Shown here: positions 39,098 to 50,770 of the stretch, piece after piece
How the letters are laid out: each line of letters opens with the position of its first letter
How positions within the stretch are numbered: the stretch's first letter is position 1
The notes under the pieces: generated by a model
Told to the model about the DNA's origin: nothing
Database searches by the model: none
Seen by the model: the letters and a program-made list of their open reading frames with translations, nothing else
NCBI RefSeq assembly: GCF_007559335.1
Contig: NZ_VMBG01000001.1
Location: 1,240,001-1,304,000 of the forward strand
Origin: Rariglobus hedericola
GTDB taxonomy: Bacteria > Verrucomicrobiota > Verrucomicrobiia > Opitutales > Opitutaceae
Direction: 5' to 3'
DNA length: 64,000 nucleotides
Translations under genes and position numbers: made by a program

Positions 39098-40171
39098 TTA
39101 CTCCGTTCGCACGACCACCAGATCGTCGGTATGCAACCCGCACCACACGCGGTCGCCTTCATGAATCGCCTCAAGTAACGCGCTCTCGTTGGCGACCACC
39201 GCGGTGAGCCGCGTGCCTCCGGTAAACTCAATCAGCAGCCGATCCAGCGCGCCTTGAAACAGCTCCTCGGTCACACGCGCCTCGAAAACATTCTCACAAT
39301 CGACCGGCTTTTTGGAAACATGCACTTTCTCCGGGCGCACCGAGATGAGCGCGCGTGTTGCGTCCGCCGGCCACTGCGCGGCGTTCACGGAGAGTTCCAG
39401 CCCGCCTTCGATCCGCACGCGCGCCGTGGTTGCGTCGCGTGCAACCAACTCCGCCGGCAGCAAATTCGCCTCGCCGATGAAGTCGGCCACGAACGCCGTG
39501 CGCGGTTGGTGATAGATTTCCGTCGCGGTGCCGAGTTGCTCCAGACGACCTTTGTTGAACACCGCGATGCGGTCGCTCATGGACAGCGCCTCCTCCTGAT
39601 CGTGCGTCACGAAGACAAAGGTCATGCCGAGGATTTTCTGGAGTCGCTTCAGCTCGATCTGCATTTGCCCGCGTAGCTTGGCATCAAGCGCGGAGAGCGG
39701 TTCGTCGAGCAACAGAACCGACGGACGCGGCACGATGGCACGCGCAAGGGCGACGCGCTGGCGTTGTCCGCCGGAAAGTTGCGCGGGCTTGCGGTTCTCG
39801 AAACCTGTCAGCGCCACCAGCTCGATCACTTCCGCAATGCGCACGGCCGCCTCGGCAGCGGGAACTTTCTGCATGCGCAGGCCAAAGCCTATATTCTCGC
39901 GCACCGTCATGTGCGGGAAGAGCGCGTAGCTCTGGAAAACCTGGTTCACGTTACGACGATACGGCGCGAGATGCGTGACATCCTCGCCGCCGATTCGAAT
40001 GAGACCTTCGTCGGGTGTCTCGAAGCCTGACAACATGCGTAGCAACGTGGTTTTCCCGCAACCGGACGGTCCGAGCAACGTGATGAACTCCCCGGCTTTG
40101 ATATGCAGGTTGACGTCGTGCACGGCGGTGAAATCGCCGAAGCGTTTGGTGACTCCGTTGATTTCGATCAT
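39098..40171 (-). CDS. potA: Polyamine ABC transporter, ATP-binding subunit
   Basis: 357 residues. The ABC ATPase has Walker A LLGPSGCGKTTLL, Q-loop, signature LSGGQRQRVALARAI, Walker B LLLDEPLSALD and switch His in FVTHDQEEA. The C-terminal TOBE domain (~280-355) is present. It energises uptake of spermidine or putrescine with the permeases upstream. It is the last gene of a potC-potD-potB-potA run; its start overlaps the potB stop (40168-40171). Confidence 0.93.
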   Translation of the reverse strand: MIEINGVTKRFGDFTAVHDVNLHIKAGEFITLLGPSGCGKTTLLRMLSGFETPDEGLIRIGGEDVTHLAPYRRNVNQVFQSYALFPHMTVRENIGFGLRMQKVPAAEAAVRIAEVIELVALTGFENRKPAQLSGGQRQRVALARAIVPRPSVLLLDEPLSALDAKLRGQMQIELKRLQKILGMTFVFVTHDQEEALSMSDRIAVFNKGRLEQLGTATEIYHQPRTAFVADFIGEANLLPAELVARDATTARVRIEGGLELSVNAAQWPADATRALISVRPEKVHVSKKPVDCENVFEARVTEELFQGALDRLLIEFTGGTRLTAVVANESALLEAIHEGDRVWCGLHTDDLVVVRTE

Positions 40172-41052
40172 GAGTGCGAATCGCGCGAACCGCGGCGCTG
40201 GATTAGCGCGTAGGCGATAATGAACATGAGGGTAAAGACGACGCCGAGCGCGGCGCCGAACGGCCAGTTACGGGCCTTGAAAAACTGATTCTGAATGACG
40301 TTGCCGATCATCGGCACCTTGGCGCCGCCCATGAGATCGGTAATCGCAAACATTCCAATCGCCGGCACGAACACGAGGAGGATACCCGCCGCGATGCCCG
40401 GCCAAGTCAGCGGCACGATGACTTCGGAAAATGCCCGCACCGGTCCGGCGCCCAGATCATGGGCCGCCTCGACCAGTGCATTATCGAGTTTCTCCGCACT
40501 GCCGTAAATCGGCAGAATCATAAACGGCAGATAAGCGTAAACCAAACCGATCACCACGGCGGCCGGCGTGTAGAGAATTTCCAACGGCTCGGGAATCACG
40601 CCGGCGGAAAGCAGGAAGCCGTTGAGCAGCCCTTCGCTTTTCAGAATCGTGATCCACGCGTAGGTGCGGATGAGGAAGCTCGTCCAAAACGGAATCATCA
40701 CGAGCAGCAGCAGCCGGTTGCGAACCGCCTCGCGTTGCCGCGCGATGAACCACGCGACCGGATAGCCAAGCATCACGCACAACGCAGTCGTGAGCGCGGC
40801 ATAACAAATGGAACGCCAGAGGACGTTCAGGTAGATAGGATCGAAAACGCGTTGGTAATTTTCAAAGGTGAACTCAAACACCACGCGCCCGAGATCATCG
40901 CGGGAGCAAAAGCTGTAAACGAACAGGATAGCCATCGGCACGATCACAAACAGAACGAGCCAGGCGAGCATAGGCGCCAGCAGCACCCAGCCCCACAGGC
41001 GCGGGCTGCGCGCATGCGGGCTGTCGGAAGATGCCGATGGCAGCGTCTGCAT
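40168..41052 (-). CDS. potB: Polyamine ABC transporter permease (PotB-like)
   Basis: 294 residues with about six membrane helices. The cytoplasmic EAA loop is EAAHDLGAGPVRAFSEVIVPL, which docks on the ATPase. The N-terminal AWLVLFVIVPMAILFVYSF is typical of PotB/PotH permeases. It lies between potD and potA, overlapping potA by 4 bp and 26 bp after potD. Together with PotC it forms the membrane channel. Confidence 0.92.
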   Translation of the reverse strand: MQTLPSASSDSPHARSPRLWGWVLLAPMLAWLVLFVIVPMAILFVYSFCSRDDLGRVVFEFTFENYQRVFDPIYLNVLWRSICYAALTTALCVMLGYPVAWFIARQREAVRNRLLLLVMIPFWTSFLIRTYAWITILKSEGLLNGFLLSAGVIPEPLEILYTPAAVVIGLVYAYLPFMILPIYGSAEKLDNALVEAAHDLGAGPVRAFSEVIVPLTWPGIAAGILLVFVPAIGMFAITDLMGGAKVPMIGNVIQNQFFKARNWPFGAALGVVFTLMFIIAYALIQRRGSRDSHS

Positions 41053-41078
41053 CAGAAATCAGACTGCGAAACGCCGGC

Positions 41079-42107
41079 TCACTTGGCGTTCTTCAAATCC
41101 GTGACCAGTTCGTCGATCAGGGCGCCACTTTCGCCGAGATGACGGAAGGTATCGAGCTTGCGATCGGTCTTCGGGTAGCTGGCGGGATTGGCGAGCTGCT
41201 CGGGCGTGAGCTGCTTACGGGCTTCGCCATTGGGATTCGTGTAGGGAAACTCTTCGGAGATCAGCACGCTCACTTCGGGACGCAGGATGTAATCCAGGAA
41301 TTTGTGAGCGGCGGTCTGGTTCTTCGAGCCCTTGGGGATCGCGAGGATATCGACAAACATGTGGGCGCCTTCGGAAGGCAGGTGATATTGGAATTTCTTG
41401 TTTTCGTTCCAGAGGATCGCGGCTTCACCACCCCAGACGAGACCGAGGTCGACATCGCCGTTGAGCAACGCGGTCTTGGGGCTATCGGAGTCGAACAGCT
41501 TGATATTCTTAAACCAGCCAGCGAGGACCGGACGGGCTTTTTCGAGGTTGGCAGAGGTGATGTCGTTCAAACCGATGCCGAGCGTGTAGAGCGCACCCAC
41601 CACGAGTTCGCGGCCGTCATCCAAGGCAACGATGCGTCCCTTATATTTATTAGAGAAAAGATCGGCGTAGCCCTTGACCGGCTCCTTCACTTTTTCGGTG
41701 TTCACCACGATGCCAACCGTGCCGGCCATGTAGGGAATCGTAAACGCCTGCTCGGGATCGTGAGGCATCTTCGTAAACTCCGGCAGGATGTTTTTGAAGT
41801 TCGGGAGTTTCTTGTAATCGAGAGGGATGAGCAGCTTGTTTTTGATAAGCGCCTCGGCGATGTAATCGGGTGGCTGGATCAGGTCGTAACGCGTGCCGCC
41901 GGCGAGCAACTTGGCGAGCATCTCCTCACCGGAGGCGAAGGTCTCGTAGTTGACCTTGATGCCCGTCTCTTTTGTGAAGCCGTCGAGCACGGTCTGCGGG
42001 ATGTATTCGGACCAGGCGTAAAGGTTGAGTTCTTTGTCGGCAGCGCGACCAGTGACGGCGAACGTCGCGGCCAGCACGAATAGAGGGAGAAGACGGAGGA
42101 GTTTCAT
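41079..42107 (-). CDS. potD: Polyamine-binding periplasmic protein (PotD/PotF-like)
   Basis: 342 residues from ATG 42107; the frame is open much further upstream but the signal peptide (LLRLLPLFVLAATFAVTGRA) fixes this start. The mature N-terminus ELNLYAWSEYIPQTVLDGF is characteristic of the family, and WGGEAAILW and acidic residues in YDLIQPPDYIAE line the polyamine pocket. It delivers substrate to the PotBC channel. Unusually it sits between potC and potB instead of at the end. Confidence 0.93.
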   Translation of the reverse strand: MKLLRLLPLFVLAATFAVTGRAADKELNLYAWSEYIPQTVLDGFTKETGIKVNYETFASGEEMLAKLLAGGTRYDLIQPPDYIAEALIKNKLLIPLDYKKLPNFKNILPEFTKMPHDPEQAFTIPYMAGTVGIVVNTEKVKEPVKGYADLFSNKYKGRIVALDDGRELVVGALYTLGIGLNDITSANLEKARPVLAGWFKNIKLFDSDSPKTALLNGDVDLGLVWGGEAAILWNENKKFQYHLPSEGAHMFVDILAIPKGSKNQTAAHKFLDYILRPEVSVLISEEFPYTNPNGEARKQLTPEQLANPASYPKTDRKLDTFRHLGESGALIDELVTDLKNAK

Positions 42108-42157
42108 GGTAAGAAGATTGAAGGTAAAATCGCTTGAGCGGGAAGCGCGCCAGTGGC

Positions 42158-42976
42158 TCAGCGGGCCGATAGTTTTTTGAGGTGATTGGAGAACAACACG
42201 AACGCGACCGTCGTGAGAATAAAAAGGGCTGAAAGCGCGTTGAGCATCGGATTGAGGCCGATCTTGGCCATGCCGAAAACCACCGTTGGCAGCGTCGCCG
42301 AGCCGGGGCCGGTGGTGAACACCGTGATGATGAGTTCGTCCATAGAGAGCGTGAACGCCATCAACGCGCCCGAAATAATCGCCGGCCGCAGGCACGGCAC
42401 GATCACGAGCCAAAAGGCCTTCAGCGGTGACGCTCCTAGGTCCAAAGCAGCCTCTTCCAGTGCCGGGTCCAGTCCCTGCAACCGCGCCTGCACCGCTACC
42501 ATGACGAACGGGAAGCAAAACGTCACGTGCGCCAGAATCACCGTGAGGTAGCCCAGCTCAAGATGCACCACGGTGAAAAATATCAACAGGCTGATGCCCA
42601 TCACGATTTCCGGCATGATCATCGGCACGCAGATGAGCGTCTGGATCGTCCGCGTAAACCGGTAGCGATACCGGTGCAACAACCACGCACCGCCGGTCCC
42701 GATCACGACTGAAGCTACCGTGGTGAACGCCGCGATGATCAGGCTGTTTTTGAGCGAGCGGATGATGCGCACGTTGTCCCACACATCGGCATACCACCGG
42801 ACCGTGAAGCCCTCCCATACGATGTTGAGCTTCGACGTGTTGAACGAATACGCCACCAGCACGAGGATCGGCAGGTAGAGGAAGATAAACACTCCCGTCG
42901 TCCAGACGCCAAAGCCGAGGTTCAACAACCTCAGGCCCGAAGGCATCAACGGACGCGACGTGGACGATTTCGGCAT
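42158..42976 (-). CDS. potC: Polyamine ABC transporter permease (PotC-like)
   Basis: 272 residues with six membrane helices. It has the conserved YLPILVLVAYSFN start, EAA loop EEAALDLGASPLKAFWLVIVP and SMDELIITVFTTGPGSATLP near the C-terminus. It pairs with PotB. It is first in the operon and lies 69 bp downstream of the sigma-54 activator gene on the same strand, so readthrough from that gene is possible. Confidence 0.93.
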   Translation of the reverse strand: MPKSSTSRPLMPSGLRLLNLGFGVWTTGVFIFLYLPILVLVAYSFNTSKLNIVWEGFTVRWYADVWDNVRIIRSLKNSLIIAAFTTVASVVIGTGGAWLLHRYRYRFTRTIQTLICVPMIMPEIVMGISLLIFFTVVHLELGYLTVILAHVTFCFPFVMVAVQARLQGLDPALEEAALDLGASPLKAFWLVIVPCLRPAIISGALMAFTLSMDELIITVFTTGPGSATLPTVVFGMAKIGLNPMLNALSALFILTTVAFVLFSNHLKKLSAR

Positions 42977-43045: not shown

Positions 43046-44569
43046 TTATAACCGCGCCTTCACCGTGCGACGGTCGAGATCGAGACGGCGTGCGGTCTCC
43101 TCCACCGTGCCGACCTGCGCGTGCACCTGCCTCGTGTAACGCCGCAACACCTCCTCCGCCGTAAGCCGTCCGCCCGCCAGCAGCGTGTTCCAGTCCTCCC
43201 CTGCCCCGACGCCCAGCGCCGCCGGCCGGTAGCTGCCTCGCACGAGCAGATTGCGCATGCATTGCTCCAGCTCACGGAAGTTGCCCGGCCACGCGTAATC
43301 CGCTCCGAGGTTTTTCCCGATCCAGTCCACCGTCTCTCTCGCAAAAGCAGATCCCTCGCCCGCCCCGAGCAAACGCGTGGACACATAACCCACCAGCACC
43401 GGCAATTCATCCGGACTGTCATCCAATTGATCGCGCAACGAGGGCGTCTGAATCAAGTCCGAGCACAACCGGTAGTAAAAATCCTCGCGAAAACGCCCCG
43501 CGCGGATTTCCGCCGCCAGATCGCGATTGGTCGCCGCGATGATTTTGCCTTTAAACGTGCGCGTCTCGGTATCGCCGAGTCGTTGAAAGGTCCGCGATTG
43601 CAGCACACGCAACAGCTTCACCTGGATGCCCGTCTCGACGTCGCCGATTTCATCGAGGAACACCGAGCCCGCGGCCGGACACGTTTCCATCCAGCCTTCA
43701 CGATCCGCCAGCGCGCCGGTAAACGCCCCGCGCCGGTGACCGAACAACTCCGACTCGATGAGCGTCGGCGACAATGCCGACAGATTGAGCGGGAAAAACG
43801 CCGCCGTTGAAAAATCATCCGTGAAGCCGCCCCGGCGCGGATCAAACGGCAAATAACGCGACAGCGCGATCGCCCGCGCGACCAGCTCCTTGCCCGTGCC
43901 AGACGGCCCCGTGATCAGCGTCGCAAAGTCCCCCATGCTCGTGTGCAGCACCCGGCGATAACGCTTCAGGTCATGCGTGAACACCGACTGCCAGATCGCC
44001 GCGCGCAACCGCGCCATCGGTGCCGAGCCGCCCGCCAGCGAACGAAAAATGTGATGGAATGCCCGGCGGATTTGAAACGCGCACGCGAAGAGGTGCGGTG
44101 CCGGTTGCGTGTCCAAAAGCGCCAGTCCCGGCAACGTCAGCAAACGGTCCACATCGGCTTTGAACGCCGGATAAAACTCCACGCGCATTCCCCCCGCACC
44201 CCCGTTTTCAGAAAGCTCCGTGCGGATCACCGCGTCGAAGCGCAGCGCATACGTCTGATAAAGCCAGAAGCCCGCCAGCTCCTCGTAGTTGGTCGCCTCG
44301 GCTTTCGCTACACGGCCATCTCGCGGCCACCGCGCACGCACCTGTTCGAGCACCGCTGCGGCGCGTTCCGTGAGCCGCAGGTGATTGGGATGCGACGCCT
44401 CCGCAGGCGGCAGTTTGTTCCACTCCGCACCCGCCGCCACGAAACCCGCGCCCAAGGCCGCGCGCTCTCCCTCGACCCGCTCAGGCAGGAATGGATTGGT
44501 CGTGTTAATCAGCGCCACCGCTTCGGCAAACCGCCGTTCTTCAGCCGTGAACAAGGAAGACATATACAT
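43046..44569 (-). CDS. Sigma-54-dependent transcriptional activator with an unrecognised sensor domain
   Basis: 507 residues (a second ATG lies two codons downstream). The AAA+ centre has Walker A GPSGTGKE with Lys227, the sigma-54 contact loop GAFTGA, Walker B GSVFLDEIGD and the R-finger region FREDFYYRLCSD. The C-terminus ends in a Fis-type helix-turn-helix (EETARRLDLDRRTVKARL). The ~200-residue N-terminal part has no receiver, GAF or PAS signature; it contains WLYQTYALRFDAVI and FQIRRAFHHIFRS. It is divergent from the VIT-VWA gene and upstream of potC, so either could be a target (inference). Confidence 0.9.
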   Translation of the reverse strand: MYMSSLFTAEERRFAEAVALINTTNPFLPERVEGERAALGAGFVAAGAEWNKLPPAEASHPNHLRLTERAAAVLEQVRARWPRDGRVAKAEATNYEELAGFWLYQTYALRFDAVIRTELSENGGAGGMRVEFYPAFKADVDRLLTLPGLALLDTQPAPHLFACAFQIRRAFHHIFRSLAGGSAPMARLRAAIWQSVFTHDLKRYRRVLHTSMGDFATLITGPSGTGKELVARAIALSRYLPFDPRRGGFTDDFSTAAFFPLNLSALSPTLIESELFGHRRGAFTGALADREGWMETCPAAGSVFLDEIGDVETGIQVKLLRVLQSRTFQRLGDTETRTFKGKIIAATNRDLAAEIRAGRFREDFYYRLCSDLIQTPSLRDQLDDSPDELPVLVGYVSTRLLGAGEGSAFARETVDWIGKNLGADYAWPGNFRELEQCMRNLLVRGSYRPAALGVGAGEDWNTLLAGGRLTAEEVLRRYTRQVHAQVGTVEETARRLDLDRRTVKARL

Positions 44570-44601: not shown

Positions 44602-44707
44602 TTAAGCCAACCAATTAAATACTCACAATAACCACTAAACACTCATCATCATGTAGTTAATAAAACTCGCCTCACCTTGGCATCCGCTGAGCAAAGCAAG
44701 CGATGTC

Positions 44708-46741
44708 ATGAAAACCAAATCGCTCATTCTCACCGGCCTGCTCGCCTTCGCCGCCGCGCTTACACCTGCGGCGTTTGCGGGCGGCACACTGACGCCTGTC
44801 GGCTCTCCGCACGCACCGATCCAGATTCGCTCTCATCAGGTCAACGTGACCATCAACAACGGTTTCGCCCAAACCGAGGTGCTGCAGACGTTCTTCAATC
44901 CCAACCCGACCGATCTCGAAGCCCTCTACGTCTTCCCGGTTCCAAAGAGCGCGAGTCTCTCCGAGGTCACGATCACCTCAGGCGAAAAAACCTTGAACGG
45001 CGAAGTGCTCCCCAAAAAGGAAGCCGAGACGATCTACGAAGAAGAAAAGTCCAAGGGCAACGATGCCGGCCTCACCACTAAAAACGGTTACCAAAACTAC
45101 GAGTTCAAGATCACGCCCGTCCGCGCCAACGCCGAGACTCAGTTGCGCTTCGTGTATTACCAACCTCTCGAAATCGACACCGGCGTGGGTCGCTATGTTT
45201 ACCCGCTCGAGGAAGGCGGCACCGACGAGGTCGCCAAGAGTTTCTGGCAGCCCGCCCACTCGACCGTCGAGGGTCGCTTCGCCATTAACGTCACGCTCAA
45301 ATCCGCCTGGCCCGTCGCCGATGTGCGCGTCCCCGGATTCGAAAACGCCACCGTCACCAACAAACTCGACGCCGGTCACTACACGCTTTCGCTCGATCGC
45401 ACCGGCGCGAAGCTCGATCGCGACTTTGTGCTCTACTATCGCCTGGCCGACAACCTCCCCGGCCGCGTAGAGGTCATTCCTTACCGCGCCGACAAGTCCA
45501 AGCCCGGCACCTTCATGATGGTCGTCACCCCCGGCATCGATCTGCAGCCCATCACGAGCGCCGACTACACCTACGTCCTCGACGTGTCGGGCTCCATGCA
45601 GGGAAAAATCGCCACGCTCGCCAACGGCATCAGCCAGGCCCTCGGCCAGATGCGCCCCGCCGACCGTTTTCGCATCATCACATTTAACAACAACGCCACT
45701 GAGATCCTCGGCTGGACGACCGCCACTCCCGAAAACGTCGCCAACGCTACCACGCTGGTGAAAGCCATGCAGCCCAACGGCGGCACCAACATCTACGCCG
45801 GCCTGCAGCTCGCCCTCAAAAACCTCGATGCCGACCGCGCCAGCAGTGTCGTCCTCGTCACCGACGGTGTGACCAACGAGGGCATCGTCGATCCCGCCAA
45901 GTTCCACGCGCTCTTGAAACAGCAGGACGTGCGCTTCTTCGGATTCCTCATGGGCAACAACGCCAACTGGCCGCTCATGCGCGCCATGGGTGATGCGACC
46001 GGCGGTTTCTACACTGGTGTATCCAACTCCGATGACATCGTCGGACAGCTCCTCCTCGCCAAATCCAAGATCGCCTTCGAGTCACTCCATGACGCCTCGT
46101 TCAAATTCACCGGTGCCCGCGTGTCCGAGACGACCGGCGATCTCCCGCAGAAAATCTACCGCGGCCAGCAACTCGTGATCTTCGGCCGCTACGACGGCGC
46201 CGGCCCGGCCACGGTCTCGCTCAAAGCCAGACTCACCGGCGAAGACAAAACCTACACCACCACGTTCAACTTCCCCGAGGTCGACACCGACAACCCTGAG
46301 ATCGAACGTCTCTGGGCGCTCGCCCAGATCGAGCAGATCGAACTCAAGGAAGCCATCGGCCAGATGCCCGCCTCTGAATCGAAGGATGCCATCATCAGCC
46401 TCGGCGTTACCTACCAGCTCGTGACCGATCACACCGCGATGCTCGTCCTTGATGATGCCACGCACGCGAGCCGCGGTATTGATCGCAAGAATCAGCAACG
46501 CACCGCCACCGAGCGCACCGCGCAGAGCGTCCGCTCCTCGCGGCCTGTTAAGAGTTACCAAGTCGATGCCCAACAGCCCACCTACTCCGCTCCGGCTCCT
46601 CATGTGAGCCACTCGGGTGGTGGTGGTGGCGGTGGTGCCCTTGATCGCAAGGACATCGTCATGCTCGCCGTCATCATCGGTCTGGTCGGAGGCGCCTACG
46701 CCGGTCGCCAAGCCATGAAACGCAAATCGGATAAAGAGTAA
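44708..46741 (+). CDS. Exported VIT-VWA domain protein with Gly-rich / TM / basic C-terminal anchor
   Basis: 677 residues. A signal peptide (SLILTGLLAFAAALTPAAFA) is followed by a VIT domain (~25-165, with LEALYVFPVPKSASLSEV) and a VWA domain (~280-460) with MIDAS DVSGSM at Asp292. Near the C-terminus come seven glycines (637-643), ALDRKD, one helix (IVMLAVIIGLVGGAYAG) and a basic KRKSDKE end. This resembles sorting tails such as GlyGly-CTERM. A rhombosortase-like protease is two genes downstream, so cleavage at this tail is a reasonable inference. The surface role could be adhesion, as for related VIT-VWA proteins. Confidence 0.9.
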   Translation: MKTKSLILTGLLAFAAALTPAAFAGGTLTPVGSPHAPIQIRSHQVNVTINNGFAQTEVLQTFFNPNPTDLEALYVFPVPKSASLSEVTITSGEKTLNGEVLPKKEAETIYEEEKSKGNDAGLTTKNGYQNYEFKITPVRANAETQLRFVYYQPLEIDTGVGRYVYPLEEGGTDEVAKSFWQPAHSTVEGRFAINVTLKSAWPVADVRVPGFENATVTNKLDAGHYTLSLDRTGAKLDRDFVLYYRLADNLPGRVEVIPYRADKSKPGTFMMVVTPGIDLQPITSADYTYVLDVSGSMQGKIATLANGISQALGQMRPADRFRIITFNNNATEILGWTTATPENVANATTLVKAMQPNGGTNIYAGLQLALKNLDADRASSVVLVTDGVTNEGIVDPAKFHALLKQQDVRFFGFLMGNNANWPLMRAMGDATGGFYTGVSNSDDIVGQLLLAKSKIAFESLHDASFKFTGARVSETTGDLPQKIYRGQQLVIFGRYDGAGPATVSLKARLTGEDKTYTTTFNFPEVDTDNPEIERLWALAQIEQIELKEAIGQMPASESKDAIISLGVTYQLVTDHTAMLVLDDATHASRGIDRKNQQRTATERTAQSVRSSRPVKSYQVDAQQPTYSAPAPHVSHSGGGGGGGALDRKDIVMLAVIIGLVGGAYAGRQAMKRKSDKE

Positions 46742-46759
46742 CCTGCCTCATAAAACCGC

Positions 46760-46819
46760 GGGCGTGGACGAGCCACGCCCCTACCCACTCCGACGTAGGG
46801 GCGCGCCTCGTGCGCGCCC
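46760..46819. repeat. Paired GC-rich hairpin repeats after the VIT-VWA gene
   Basis: Two perfect 8-bp hairpins (GGGCGTGG-N5-CCACGCCC at 46760-46780 and GGGCGCGC-N5-GCGCGCCC at 46799-46819) each carry a CTAC/GTAG flank and face each other as an imperfect inverted repeat (20 of 25 positions match). There is no T run, so they are not standard terminators. They look like a REP-type element. Confidence 0.65.
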
Positions 46820-46870
46820 GCTCCGCGAAAAAATTCACTCGACTCACATCTGTTTAAAATTCCAGCCCAC

Positions 46871-47152
46871 ATGTCGCTCACACCTCCTCCACTTCCCGAG
46901 ATGCCCGGACTCACTCCGATCCCAAAGCTACCCAAGCACGGCTTTTTCCCGCCGGAGATCATCAAGGCAGTGGCCTTTTATATCATCTCCTTATGCATCC
47001 TGGCCGGCGTCATCGTGTGCATTCTTGCCATCTGGGATTTTGCAAATCGGGACACGTTGTGGCGCTTCGCATCGTCATTCCTCGTCGTGGCCGCCGGCAG
47101 CGTGCTGTTTGCTTACGTGAACGGCATGTTTGGCGACAAACGCGGGCTTTAA
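46871..47152 (+). CDS. Small two-helix membrane protein between VIT-VWA and rhombosortase-like genes
   Basis: 93 residues. A Pro-rich N-terminus (SLTPPPLPEMPG) precedes two membrane helices, AFYIISLCILAGVIVCILAI and SSFLVVAAGSVLFAYVNG, and the tail ends FGDKRGL. No family was recognised. It is 15 bp upstream of the rhombosortase-like gene on the same strand, so they are likely cotranscribed. It may be a partner of the protease or of the VIT-VWA protein. Confidence 0.65.
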   Translation: MSLTPPPLPEMPGLTPIPKLPKHGFFPPEIIKAVAFYIISLCILAGVIVCILAIWDFANRDTLWRFASSFLVVAAGSVLFAYVNGMFGDKRGL

Positions 47153-47167
47153 CATTCATCGCCCGTC

Positions 47168-47791
47168 ATGAAACGCCTGCCTTGGTCCACCCTCACCGTC
47201 TCCGTGCTCGCAGTGATCATTCACTTCGTGCCGGCGCTGGGTAACGTGTTGCAGTTTGACCGCGCGGCCGTCGCACACGGACAGGTATGGCGTTTCTTCA
47301 GCGCGCATCTCACCCACTTCGGCGATGATCATCTGCGCTGGGACCTGCTCGCGTTTGTCATTCTGGGCGCGATGGCCGAACGCATTTCGCGGCGCGCCTT
47401 TCTGCTCACGCTGGGTGTGTCCGCGCTCATCATCAGCACCGGCGTGTGGGTCGCCCAACCGCAGTTCACCACCTACCGCGGACTCTCCGGTATCGACTCG
47501 GCATTGTTCAGTTTCGTCATCGCGGATCTACTGGCGACCGGCTGGCGCGAACGCCACCGGTTTTCGCTCATCGTAGGTGTCGCAGCACTCGGCGGATTTC
47601 TCGCCAAGTGCGTGTTTGAAGTCCTCACTGGCAACACGGTTTTTGTCGAAGCAGGCGAAGTCTTCGCGCCCGTGCCGCTGGCCCATCTCCTCGGCGGAGC
47701 CGTGGGCGCGGCCGTGGTGATGTGGCAATCAGTTCGCCATCGCGCGATCCAGCAACCGCTGCAATTGCGAGGTGCCGATCGCCTGCAGTGA
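47168..47791 (+). CDS. Rhombosortase-like rhomboid-family intramembrane serine protease
   Basis: 207 residues with about six membrane segments. The rhomboid signature is present: WRFFSAHLTHFGDDHLRWDL near the first loop, catalytic Ser107 in YRGLSGIDSALF, and catalytic His173 in LAHLLGGAVG. The compact size and GLSG plus C-terminal His pattern fit rhombosortases, which cut proteins bearing GlyGly-CTERM tails, rather than GlpG-type rhomboids. The VIT-VWA protein 430 bp upstream is the obvious substrate candidate. The 3' end overlaps the convergent AsmA-like gene by 63 bp. Confidence 0.78.
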   Translation: MKRLPWSTLTVSVLAVIIHFVPALGNVLQFDRAAVAHGQVWRFFSAHLTHFGDDHLRWDLLAFVILGAMAERISRRAFLLTLGVSALIISTGVWVAQPQFTTYRGLSGIDSALFSFVIADLLATGWRERHRFSLIVGVAALGGFLAKCVFEVLTGNTVFVEAGEVFAPVPLAHLLGGAVGAAVVMWQSVRHRAIQQPLQLRGADRLQ

Positions 47792-50647
47792 GCCATCCAG
47801 CTTCAACTCCTCAACCAACGGGGAGTAACCGAGTTTGTCAGGCTGACCTTCGATCAACTTCAACGTGCGCAAGTCGGCGGCGAGTTTGTCCTTTGCGCCT
47901 ACCTGTAGATTCACTAGCAAAGGCTGCTGCATCAAAGGCACGCCGGGTTGATAAGTGATCTCACCCGAGCCCGTGAGATGAATGAGCGGAGAGATTACGG
48001 AAAGAGTTTTGATGCCCAGGTTGTTTTTCTCGTCACGACCGACAACCAGTTCGAGCTGATCAAATTGGATCGAAGTAAACTGCTTGGTCACATCCGCGGC
48101 GGCACGCACGCGATCGGCATATTTCACCGTGGAATCGCTGCCGGCGAGCGCGCCGAAAAGCCCCGCCACCGCAGCGACACGGCCGGCATTCTCGGCATTA
48201 GCACCCGCTTTCACACTGATTGCTTTCAGTGTGCCTTGGCGACTGGAGAGCTTGATATCGCCGACCACGCTTTCAGTAAAACCCGCAGGCTCAATCGCGC
48301 GGCCGGCCAGTTGAGTCGTCAGGTTGAACTTGCCCTCGACCGGCGAAGGCTTGCCCGGTGAAAGCGCCCGCAGAATCGGCGCGGGTTCCACATCCGTGAG
48401 CGCGACATCCGCCTTGAGGGCGTAGGGCTGCTTTTGCTTCGCATCGAATTGCAAATCACCGCCGGCCTTAAACGTGCCACCGGTCTTTAAGGCGGCGCCG
48501 ATGTTTTCCAAGGTCAGCGCAGCGGGCGTGATTTTGATCATTCCTTCCACGCCGGTGACCTGAATATCGCCGGTGTAAATGATCTTCTTGAATGCGATCT
48601 TCAACTCGCCCGTCACACCGTCCCACAACGGTGCGGTGGGAGCGGGAGCAGCAGGAGGCGTGACCGGTTTCGTCGGCGCGGGCACCGGTGCGGCCGGGGC
48701 CGTCGCCTGGGCCGGTGATGGTGACACCGAAGAGAACAGCATGAGATCGGCGACGTTGAGCGTATCACCGGTGAGCTGGGCTTTGATGTCGGTGTTCTTT
48801 TCGGCGGGCGTGATGACCGCGCCGAGCGTCAGGTCGGAACGACGGCCCGCCTGCGTGATCACGATCGGCACCGTGGCATCAATGCGGCCCGCCGCGTTTA
48901 TGTCGGCCCTCGCCTGCAGCGCGACTGACGGCAGCGCCGAGGACACATCGTTGGCAGCGACCAGATCGGCGAGTTGCAGCGTAAACGTGGCTGACTGCAG
49001 CTTGGCAATCGACGCACTGAAATCTCCGCGTGCCAGACCGCGCTTAAGCGCGACCGAACCCGCGGCGACCGGCTGCGTCAGCGCAACTGGCAGATTGATC
49101 TCGTAAGCGCCTTCCGCCTTGAGTGGTTGATCGGTGCGCTCGGTTTCCTGCGAAGCGCGCGCAGTGAACTTGAGCAAGGGCGCGGCGGCGCTGAGCACGG
49201 TCAGATCGGTGACCTGGGCGGTCCAGCCCTTCGGCGTGTAATCGGCCTCGGTCGCGAGCGAAATGTTCAGCCCGCTCACAATTGGCTTGCCGGCCTTCGA
49301 GGCGGAAAAATTCACGAGCGTGATCGGCGTGACCGGACGCAGCTTAAAGCCGCCGTCGCTGGTGATATCGGCGGAGAATTCTCCGCGCACCGGCTCTCCG
49401 GTGATCGCGAGATCCCCGAGAAACGGACGCGACCAGGTGAGCGGAATCGCATCCAGTTTCACCCGCAACCATGCAGCCGATTGGTCGCCGGTTTTCAGCA
49501 CGCCCGTGGTGGTGTTCAGCTCCAAGGAGCTGGCCGCGCTTGCGCTGAAAACGGGCTTGGGGTTCGACACGCGCACATCGAAACCGCTCAGGCGAACAAC
49601 CTCGCCGTCCTTGGCTGCATCAAAGGTCAGTTCGAAATTGAGCGGACCAAACGCGGAGAACTCCGGCTGGATCGCGTCCAGTTTATCGACGGAAGCGGTG
49701 ATCATGCCCTTGGCATTCACGAGTGTAAAAGCTCGGTTGGAGCCCAGCGTGCCTGAGCCTTTCACCACAAATTCCGGCAACGGCTTGCCCAGTGAAAACG
49801 GCGCGACATCCGCGCTGACTACATCGAGTTTCCATGAGCCGACCACCGGCGCGGCACCTTCCGCGAGTTTGATTTCGACCGCCACGAGTTCGCGCATACC
49901 GGAGCGGACATCGGCCTTGTAGTTTTCAACTGCACCGTCGCGGGCGGCCGACAATGCAAAGTTCATCTTGGCGCCAGCCGGCAGCTGCGGGTCGGTCGCC
50001 GTCGCGGCGGCGTCGATAGTAAATCGGTCAAAGGTGCGCGGTGAATTCATGCGTGCGCCCAGCACCGCATTCACGGACACGCTCGACGCGCCGGTCTTAA
50101 GATCGCTGGTAAGCGTGAACTTACCGTCTTTGCCCGAGGCGATGCCGCCGCCGGTGATCGAAACCTGCGCACGGCCTTCGGGCAGGAAGACTTCGCCGGA
50201 GAGATCAACGCCGTCCACCGCGAGGTCCACGGGCAGTTCGATGAGTTTAAAGATGCCGTCGAAGGCGGACTTCGCGGATTCGGCCGGATCTGATGCGGTC
50301 GGCCTGACGACCGATCCTGAACGTGGGATCAGGTCGAGCACCCAGCCCTTGGCGACGAGGCGGCGGACTTCGACTTTGCCGCCGACGGCGTCGACGACGT
50401 TCACCTCGATCTCGGCAGAGGGAATCGTGAGCACGAGGCCGGGCTGGATGACGCGGATGTTGTCGATACGGGTTTTGTTGATGCCCGCATCCACCCGGCC
50501 GATCGCCACGGTGAGCTCCGGCGTGGCGGGAGCGAATTTATGCGCGGCCCACGTTTGCACGCCGGGGGTGAAAGCGAGGGCGATGACGATCAGCACCAGC
50601 ACTGCGAAGGATGCCAGACCGATGAAAAGAAGACGGAGAGGTTTCAT
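47729..50647 (-). CDS. AsmA-like / DUF748-type envelope protein
   Basis: 972 residues from ATG 50647. An N-terminal membrane helix (PLRLLFIGLASFAVLVLIVIALAF) anchors a very long beta-rich periplasmic region with repeated short strands, typical of AsmA/TamB-like lipid-transfer proteins. A Pro/Ala-rich linker (~675-700: APAAPVPAPTKPVTPPAAPA) splits it. The C-terminal AsmA-like region (GEITYQPG, LPVLLKVGA-like) ends in RLLDRAMAN. A role in phospholipid traffic or outer-membrane homeostasis is inferred from the family. The 3' end overlaps the rhombosortase-like gene. Confidence 0.8.
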   Translation of the reverse strand: MKPLRLLFIGLASFAVLVLIVIALAFTPGVQTWAAHKFAPATPELTVAIGRVDAGINKTRIDNIRVIQPGLVLTIPSAEIEVNVVDAVGGKVEVRRLVAKGWVLDLIPRSGSVVRPTASDPAESAKSAFDGIFKLIELPVDLAVDGVDLSGEVFLPEGRAQVSITGGGIASGKDGKFTLTSDLKTGASSVSVNAVLGARMNSPRTFDRFTIDAAATATDPQLPAGAKMNFALSAARDGAVENYKADVRSGMRELVAVEIKLAEGAAPVVGSWKLDVVSADVAPFSLGKPLPEFVVKGSGTLGSNRAFTLVNAKGMITASVDKLDAIQPEFSAFGPLNFELTFDAAKDGEVVRLSGFDVRVSNPKPVFSASAASSLELNTTTGVLKTGDQSAAWLRVKLDAIPLTWSRPFLGDLAITGEPVRGEFSADITSDGGFKLRPVTPITLVNFSASKAGKPIVSGLNISLATEADYTPKGWTAQVTDLTVLSAAAPLLKFTARASQETERTDQPLKAEGAYEINLPVALTQPVAAGSVALKRGLARGDFSASIAKLQSATFTLQLADLVAANDVSSALPSVALQARADINAAGRIDATVPIVITQAGRRSDLTLGAVITPAEKNTDIKAQLTGDTLNVADLMLFSSVSPSPAQATAPAAPVPAPTKPVTPPAAPAPTAPLWDGVTGELKIAFKKIIYTGDIQVTGVEGMIKITPAALTLENIGAALKTGGTFKAGGDLQFDAKQKQPYALKADVALTDVEPAPILRALSPGKPSPVEGKFNLTTQLAGRAIEPAGFTESVVGDIKLSSRQGTLKAISVKAGANAENAGRVAAVAGLFGALAGSDSTVKYADRVRAAADVTKQFTSIQFDQLELVVGRDEKNNLGIKTLSVISPLIHLTGSGEITYQPGVPLMQQPLLVNLQVGAKDKLAADLRTLKLIEGQPDKLGYSPLVEELKLDGSLQAIGTSQLQRLLDRAMAN

Positions 50648-50770
50648 GGCGAAAGGGTTCCGAGGGGACGCCAGCGTGCCCTCATTCAAGGGGACATAGC
50701 AAGCGGCGCGGCGTTCCGGTTTTTGCGTTAATCTTTCCGGCTATCATCCGCGCAACTGCCGCACGTGCCC

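Follow-up and report, generated by a model that had tools for sequence, protein, structure and literature searches.

A predicted rhombosortase and VIT-VWA substrate cassette in Rariglobus hedericola and other Verrucomicrobiota

Introduction

When a rhomboid protease is encoded close to a protein whose end resembles a sorting signal, is the one dedicated to the other? The question is raised by a window of 64,000 nucleotides from Rariglobus hedericola (contig NZ_VMBG01000001.1, positions 1,240,001 to 1,304,000 of the forward strand), the whole stretch that was analyzed and whose own numbering is used below. It carries the gene for a VIT-VWA surface-type protein, the presumed substrate (44708-46741, forward strand, 677 residues), and, two genes on, that for a rhomboid (47168-47791, forward strand, 207 residues). 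A sequence-only reading of the region had taken the two for a substrate-protease cassette. The surveys described here make it likely that this enzyme and substrate, spanning three kilobases, form a dedicated rhombosortase/GlyGly-CTERM display cassette.

The rhombosortase/GlyGly-CTERM system was defined by Haft and Varghese in 2011, and the layout, dedicated pairs included, is already known from the portions of their paper used here (PMC3237569). There, genomes with a single target mostly have target and enzyme adjacent, Opitutus terrae being listed among them, and genomes with many targets have none beside the enzyme; VIT-VWA proteins with GlyGly, PEP-CTERM or LPXTG tails are also shown. The window shares with those dedicated pairs an above-cut-off rhomboid, a target with Gly motif, helix and basic end one gene away, and a single likely target. 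It differs from them in a tail that the model TIGR03501 misses, in an enzyme without the His four residues past the catalytic Ser, in an Asp at the oxyanion position and in a sigma-54 activator. What appears to be new is the enzyme branch, the oxyanion Asp, the tail type and the activator. A literature search on rhombosortase and GlyGly-CTERM in Verrucomicrobi- names, with most subscription journals and preprints outside its reach, gave no account of a VIT-linked branch, and in the available part of a 2017 paper none of four models for GlyGly-CTERM targets is described as being of VIT-VWA type (PMC5300114). Haft and Varghese also list, in the same portions, Verrucomicrobiae bacterium DG1235 with a rhombosortase and no recognised target (PMC3237569), and a cassette of the window's type could explain that enzyme.

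Family and fold of the enzyme

The rhomboid passes the rhombosortase model TIGR03902, whose curated cut-off is 84 bits, with 109.7 bits (109.9 when the genome was searched), and reaches 36.6 bits against the GlpG model TIGR04239, below its cut-off of 250. These scores rule out the housekeeping role of GlpG. They also bear out the sequence-only reading, which had recognized a rhombosortase in the motifs GLS(107)G and AH(173)LLGG; both are present, as are the rhombosortase motifs WRxxS/T (WRFFS) and AHxxGxxxG (AHLLGGAVG). The three other TIGR03902 matches of the genome reach 48.4, 41 and 20.9 bits, and a scan of the genome contigs with the rhomboid gave a single locus. The AlphaFold model has a rhomboid fold (predicted local distance difference test, pLDDT, 94.1), and all 34 of its PDB matches at E<=0.001 are GlpG structures. 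Ser107 and His173 align with the GlpG dyad, the Ser in transmembrane helix 4 and the His in transmembrane helix 6.

The substrate and its tail

The presumed substrate has a VIT domain (PF08487, 96 bits), a VWA domain (PF00092, PF13519) and an N terminus that, judged by eye, is signal-peptide-like. The marine sortase target model TIGR03788 matches it in part, at 212.1 bits, below the cut-off of 551.65. Its C terminus (46613-46738, forward strand) reads S-G7-ALDRKD-IVMLAVIIGLVGGAYAGRQAMKRKSDKE, and the translation thus contains the seven glycines, six-residue spacer, single helix and basic tail that had been described. The protein has the GlyGly-CTERM layout, in which the very C terminus of an exported protein carries a Gly motif, a single helix and a basic cluster; the export signal was again read by eye.

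All 47 complete homologous C termini, judged by eye, close with a Gly motif, then a hydrophobic stretch and then basic residues, and 6 further homologues have the layout internal to a longer protein. Of 53 homologous tails, 46 read G2-8-A and then L, I, V, F, M or G; in 29 of the 46, Asp or Glu comes next. GPVG ends the Gly motif in six distant tails, the enzymes of those loci reading GLSG.[AD]H, and a single tail fits neither pattern. At E<=10, TIGR03501 reports 4 and TIGR03867 reports 6 of the 47 complete tails. The tail is a distinct variant, G2-8-A-[LI]-[DE]-like and mostly missed by GlyGly-CTERM models. Surface proteins with tails of the window's type are probably under-annotated, since the curated models reported a minority of the 47.

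Does the genome hold a second protein with such a tail? The sequence-only reading had called for a search, and the scan covered 1.66 of 4.15 Mb (40%), with 4,913 frames of at least 120 residues. Twenty frames passed a loose tail filter, and among these candidates, inspected by eye, the VIT-VWA protein is the sole non-polytopic frame with a Gly run, a helix and a basic end; for that share of the genome, no second tail was found. The next nearest candidate, a 195-residue frame (L218), combines a Gly-rich stretch with a helix, but its end is acidic. Just one TIGR03501 match in the genome exceeds the cut-off (C1:715444, 16.8 bits). This 151-residue frame contains other hydrophobic stretches, with its Gly-Gly within the last of them, and was rejected as a target. 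Two matches below the cut-off (14.6 and 12 bits), one of them PEP-CTERM-like, were rejected from their tails only. A DNA pattern for four glycines and an alanine did not discriminate, with 150 places in the genome against 181 in the reversed control.

Linkage of enzyme and substrate across genomes

In the order, 103 genomes were surveyed. This VIT-VWA protein (E<=1e-60) is found in 14 of them, and all 14 have a rhombosortase (E<=1e-15), compared with 6 of the 89 genomes that lack the VIT-VWA protein; 15 of the 20 rhombosortases are above the cut-off. Kinship among the genomes makes the Fisher p of 6e-13 too strong. Each of the 14 has the enzyme gene a short way downstream, on the strand of the VIT-VWA gene, and some have another gene in between. 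In the family survey (150 genomes), 23 of 28 genomes with VIT-VWA have the enzyme at E<=1e-20. Among the five misses, L127 and L128 hold an adjoining enzyme below that threshold, and in G124, G164 and G195 the VIT-VWA gene stands at a contig end. The phylum survey (337 genomes) found a strong VIT-VWA match in 28 and the enzyme (E<=1e-18) in 24; of the exceptions, G253, G264 and G401 have a rhombosortase in the flank, detected by a purpose-built profile, and G124 is again the contig end.

When the three surveys are pooled, a rhombosortase is present at 50 of the 51 VIT-VWA loci with at least 650 base pairs (bp) downstream, five loci with less being omitted. L008, whose protein scores are the same as those of L119, was left out of the tail, downstream, activator and tree counts, and L161, L162 and eight further weak matches, for which no locus is given, were left out of the VIT-VWA counts. 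L128 and L158 have one stop each inside the VIT-VWA match and were otherwise counted, except that L158, its frame being broken by the stop, was dropped from the distance test. In that test, which covered 49 loci, the distances among the enzymes correlate with those among the substrates (r=0.79, 0 of 2000 permutations), a correlation that shared descent alone can give. The co-occurrence and adjacency counts in order, family and phylum rule out chance pairing, and the dedicated substrate-protease pairing that had been proposed appears to be real.

A tree built from 92 enzyme domains has a branch, with a Shimodaira-Hasegawa approximate likelihood ratio support of 97, that separates the 51 VIT-linked enzymes, together with one orphan, from 35 other Verrucomicrobiota enzymes and five proteobacterial ones. 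A sixth proteobacterial enzyme, L063 of Burkholderia stagnalis, has its frame split in two and was left out. The tree is a quick one with no bootstrap, and 27 of its 89 inner branches are weak. The midpoint root, as drawn, lies within the VIT side, which therefore may not be a clade; the answer depends on the root. The supported branch suggests that the VIT-linked enzymes stand apart from classical rhombosortases.

Points against a dedicated display cassette

A number of observations weigh against this reading, and the first concern the genomes and the tail. Outside the VIT-VWA genomes of the family survey, a rhombosortase is present in 59 of 122 (compared with the 23 of 28, Fisher p 9e-4), since other rhombosortase cassettes are common there, and the enzyme family as such is not tied to a VIT-VWA substrate. 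In G157, the exception to the pooled count, the rhombosortase is on the same contig about 11.5 kb away. In G032 (L045) the enzyme is retained without a VIT-VWA protein: compared with the sister genome G078 (L042), a 3.8 kb deletion, with a few-base overlap at the junction, eliminated the VIT-VWA gene along with most of the activator gene, sparing the middle gene and the orphan rhombosortase, whose frame is open. The window's tail is not reported by TIGR03501 (cut-off 15.5 bits) at E<=10, in the genome search or when the tail is scanned alone, and in the scan of the tail alone no family model reports it (0 families). This agrees with the suggestion, made from the ALDRKD spacer, of a distinct variant. 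Other tails were looked for in only that 40% of the genome. The partial tail scan and the orphan enzyme of G032 would suit an explanation in which conserved gene order and shared descent account for the pairing, the true substrate being elsewhere in the genome. The linkage persists across families of the phylum, however. In the nine phylum genomes whose VIT-VWA match is only a weaker, more distant one, no rhombosortase reaches E<=1e-18, and L161 and L162, the two of the nine that were inspected, lack a Gly tail. We regard a substrate elsewhere as very improbable.

Further points against the cassette lie in the active site. Ser111 replaces the hallmark His four residues past the catalytic Ser, which is said to occur in virtually all rhombosortases in the portions of the defining paper used here (PMC3237569). 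This His is found in 7 of the 51 VIT-linked enzymes and in 2 of the 5 proteobacterial enzymes, all of which pass TIGR03902, and in the present sample it does not appear to be a strict rhombosortase requirement. In the alignment to GlpG, Asp59 stands at the position of Asn154, and Asp110 lies three residues past the catalytic Ser, as an Asp does in 39 of the 51 VIT-linked enzymes. A rhomboid would not be expected to have Asp at the oxyanion position: according to the available parts of two papers, Asn154 of GlpG, together with His150, belongs to the oxyanion hole (PMC3093617, PMC12067869). On the VIT side it is nevertheless the rule, with Asp in 50 of the 50 members that have a letter there and two more gapped. 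The 35 other Verrucomicrobiota enzymes have Asn in 22 and Asp in 13, so that the Asp seems not to be unique to the VIT side. Asn is found in all five proteobacterial enzymes, in the three other rhomboids of the same genome and in all 16 enzymes linked to a rhombotarget lipoprotein. The Asp could be thought to spoil catalysis at the oxyanion hole and to leave an inactive enzyme, a pseudoprotease or chaperone for the VIT-VWA protein. Ser107 and His173 are kept in 52 of 52 VIT-side members, which points to selection for catalysis, and an inactive enzyme is very unlikely.

The remaining points concern what happens after the cut and come from a comparison with Vibrio cholerae, where, in the accessible parts of the reports, the rhombosortase RssP cuts its target VesB at the second Gly, glycerophosphoethanolamine is placed on the new C terminus and the protein is displayed at the surface via the type II secretion system (PMC6219818, PMC11389362, PMC13393428). 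Gly at P3 or Ala at P1' of the SGGS motif leaves almost no VesB activity, as far as the available text goes (PMC11389362; the activities in its Table 1 are printed '>1' and are taken here as below 1). By analogy, a GGG-A tail would be a poor substrate for RssP. Three secretins in the genome of R. hedericola, one of them close to GspD, speak for the cassette, but none passes the GspD cut-off. Could the rhomboid then be a sheddase, which cleaves and releases the VIT-VWA protein with no lipid attached, its altered oxyanion site favoring plain hydrolysis? In the portion of the literature examined, the lipid-type modification is shown for VesB of V. cholerae only (PMC6219818), and the active site differs at up to three positions. 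Against release, the enzyme scores over the rhombosortase cut-off and the tail has its Gly-rich motif where VesB is cut and modified, and we consider a sheddase unlikely.

Proposed mechanism and related systems

In the dedicated display cassette, which we prefer, the VIT-VWA protein would be exported by its signal peptide and halted in the inner membrane by its C-terminal helix. The rhombosortase would then cut within the Gly run by means of Ser107 and His173, a step suggested by the enzyme family, the co-inheritance and the anatomy of the tail. The freed C-terminal glycine may become linked to a lipid head group that contains ethanolamine, and the protein may move outwards, probably to the cell surface, as is the case for VesB, for which cleavage and glycerophosphoethanolamine modification are shown in the accessible part of the source (PMC6219818). 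V. cholerae differs, in the parts of its literature available, in that its genome has six GlyGly-CTERM proteins, the VesB motif is SGGS, and RssP accepts neither Gly at P3 nor Ala at P1'. If the cut falls after the last Gly here, the P3 and P1' preferences of the window's enzyme must therefore differ from those of RssP, and the enzyme is probably tuned to tails of the G-G-A-[LI]-[DE] type.

A bolder proposal is that the VIT-linked rhombosortases are a mechanistically distinct class of intramembrane enzyme in this phylum. A pair of Asp residues, probably protonated, would help an amine rather than water to resolve the acyl-enzyme, the preference for GGG-A would be the opposite of that of RssP, and a sigma-54 activator with an undescribed sensor-like domain would switch the module. 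This is possible, and we put it forward tentatively. A cassette of one enzyme and one substrate in three kilobases would make a clean test system, and the oxyanion site and the tail, both of which vary naturally, provide ready-made comparisons.

Two other systems are close relatives in design. The marine proteobacterial sortase target (TIGR03788) is likewise a VIT-VWA substrate with its own sorting enzyme adjoining, but it has an LPXTG tail and a sortase in place of the window's Gly tail and rhomboid, according to the portions of the paper used here (PMC3237569). The rhombotarget lipoprotein (TIGR04179), found in this bacterial family too (L079, 393.7 bits, cut-off 150), belongs to another rhombosortase cassette; it differs in the target protein, in a tail of EHKPGYTGGG type and in linked enzymes with the oxyanion Asn.

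A divergent sigma-54 activator

A divergently transcribed gene, 138 bases from that for the VIT-VWA protein, encodes a sigma-54-dependent activator (43046-44569, reverse strand, 507 residues; PF00158, 156 bits) with its AAA+ domain at residues 209-369. At 40 of the 53 loci with at least 600 bp upstream, a homologue of the activator precedes the VIT-VWA gene in divergent orientation; two loci with less, L143 and L008 were omitted. The activator, which the sequence-only reading had not mentioned, thus appears to be a much more widely conserved partner than the small protein discussed below. Its N domain, of about 205 residues, is mainly helical (model pLDDT 89), and for the window's member it has no PDB fold match at E<=0.001 and no Pfam family at E<=1. 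Seven other rhombosortase loci, read over roughly 18 kb, showed no activator homologue. One homologue lies beside a locus of the rhombotarget-lipoprotein type (L050), and the activator seems not to be strictly confined to the VIT type.

Candidate promoters were scored by the letters, of 10, that match TGGCAC-N5-TTGC. Sites with at least 8 of 10 occur at 21 of the 40 loci with the activator (shuffle mean 3.1) and at 8 of the 13 without it (shuffle mean 3.9); among the 40, six reach a score of at most 6, and three of these six have no site at all. In the window, the candidate -24/-12 promoter TGGCATCCGCTGAGC (44678-44692, forward strand) matches 7 of 10 letters, which is not significant alone (100 shuffles, p 0.16), and it would leave a very short leader of a few bases to the ATG at 44708, which counts against the site. 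The activator probably switches expression of the cassette, because its position is conserved and promoter-like sites accompany it.

The small protein and a middle protein of other lineages

Between the two genes of the window lies a small membrane protein with two hydrophobic stretches (46871-47152, forward strand, 93 residues), which the sequence-only reading had noted and had counted as part of the cassette. It is present, and it appears to be coding: compared with the L008 copy, the nonsynonymous rate dN is 0.25 and the synonymous rate dS 1.07 (dN/dS about 0.23), indicating purifying selection in its frame, and in the two shifted frames dN exceeds dS. It occurs at 2 of 56 VIT-VWA loci, those of the window and of a same-genus relative, and has been seen in its own genus only, which rules it out as a core component. 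No Pfam family reports it above the cut-off.

In some other lineages a different middle protein (SSID.SI..FW ... FG.NLFNAIP..DFVWG) lies between the two genes; it is not part of the window's cassette. In L041, L042, L045, L048 and L056 it is a separate gene; in six loci (L135-L139, L141) it is joined to the VIT-VWA protein as a fusion that follows the Gly tail and helix. In these fusions a second signal-peptide-like helix precedes the extra domain, in the manner of a polyprotein. A phylum search with the middle protein gave 0 of 337 genomes, but it recovered none of the genomes known to match and scored only 12 candidates per listed genome, and is uninformative.

Other sorting systems and neighboring genes

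The genome has a second, distant VIT-VWA protein (L058:2969-6302, at about 2,076,968-2,080,301 of C1) with a tail that by eye is PEP-CTERM-like and that no PEP-CTERM model reports at E<=0.01. Beside it is an exosortase-like gene (XrtQ 169.3 bits, cut-off 270; exosortase/archaeosortase signature 46.2, cut-off 23). One genome thus has two VIT-VWA proteins, each adjoining a different type of sorting enzyme. Two or three rhombosortases are present in several Opitutaceae-level relatives, and L036, L095 and L096 have tandem rhombosortase pairs near a large protein with a GGGGGAPS.WF-type tail.

Around the cassette, a GC-rich inverted repeat (46760-46830) separates the VIT-VWA gene from the small gene; its core GAGCCACGCCCCTACC occurs once in the window. 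An AsmA-like gene (47729-50689, reverse strand) converges on the rhombosortase gene with a 63-base tail-to-tail overlap (47729-47791). Near the activator are genes for an ATP-binding cassette (ABC) transporter of the spermidine/putrescine type (39098-42518, reverse strand), and in the frame of its binding protein (479 residues, TTG start) about 148 residues precede the family match.

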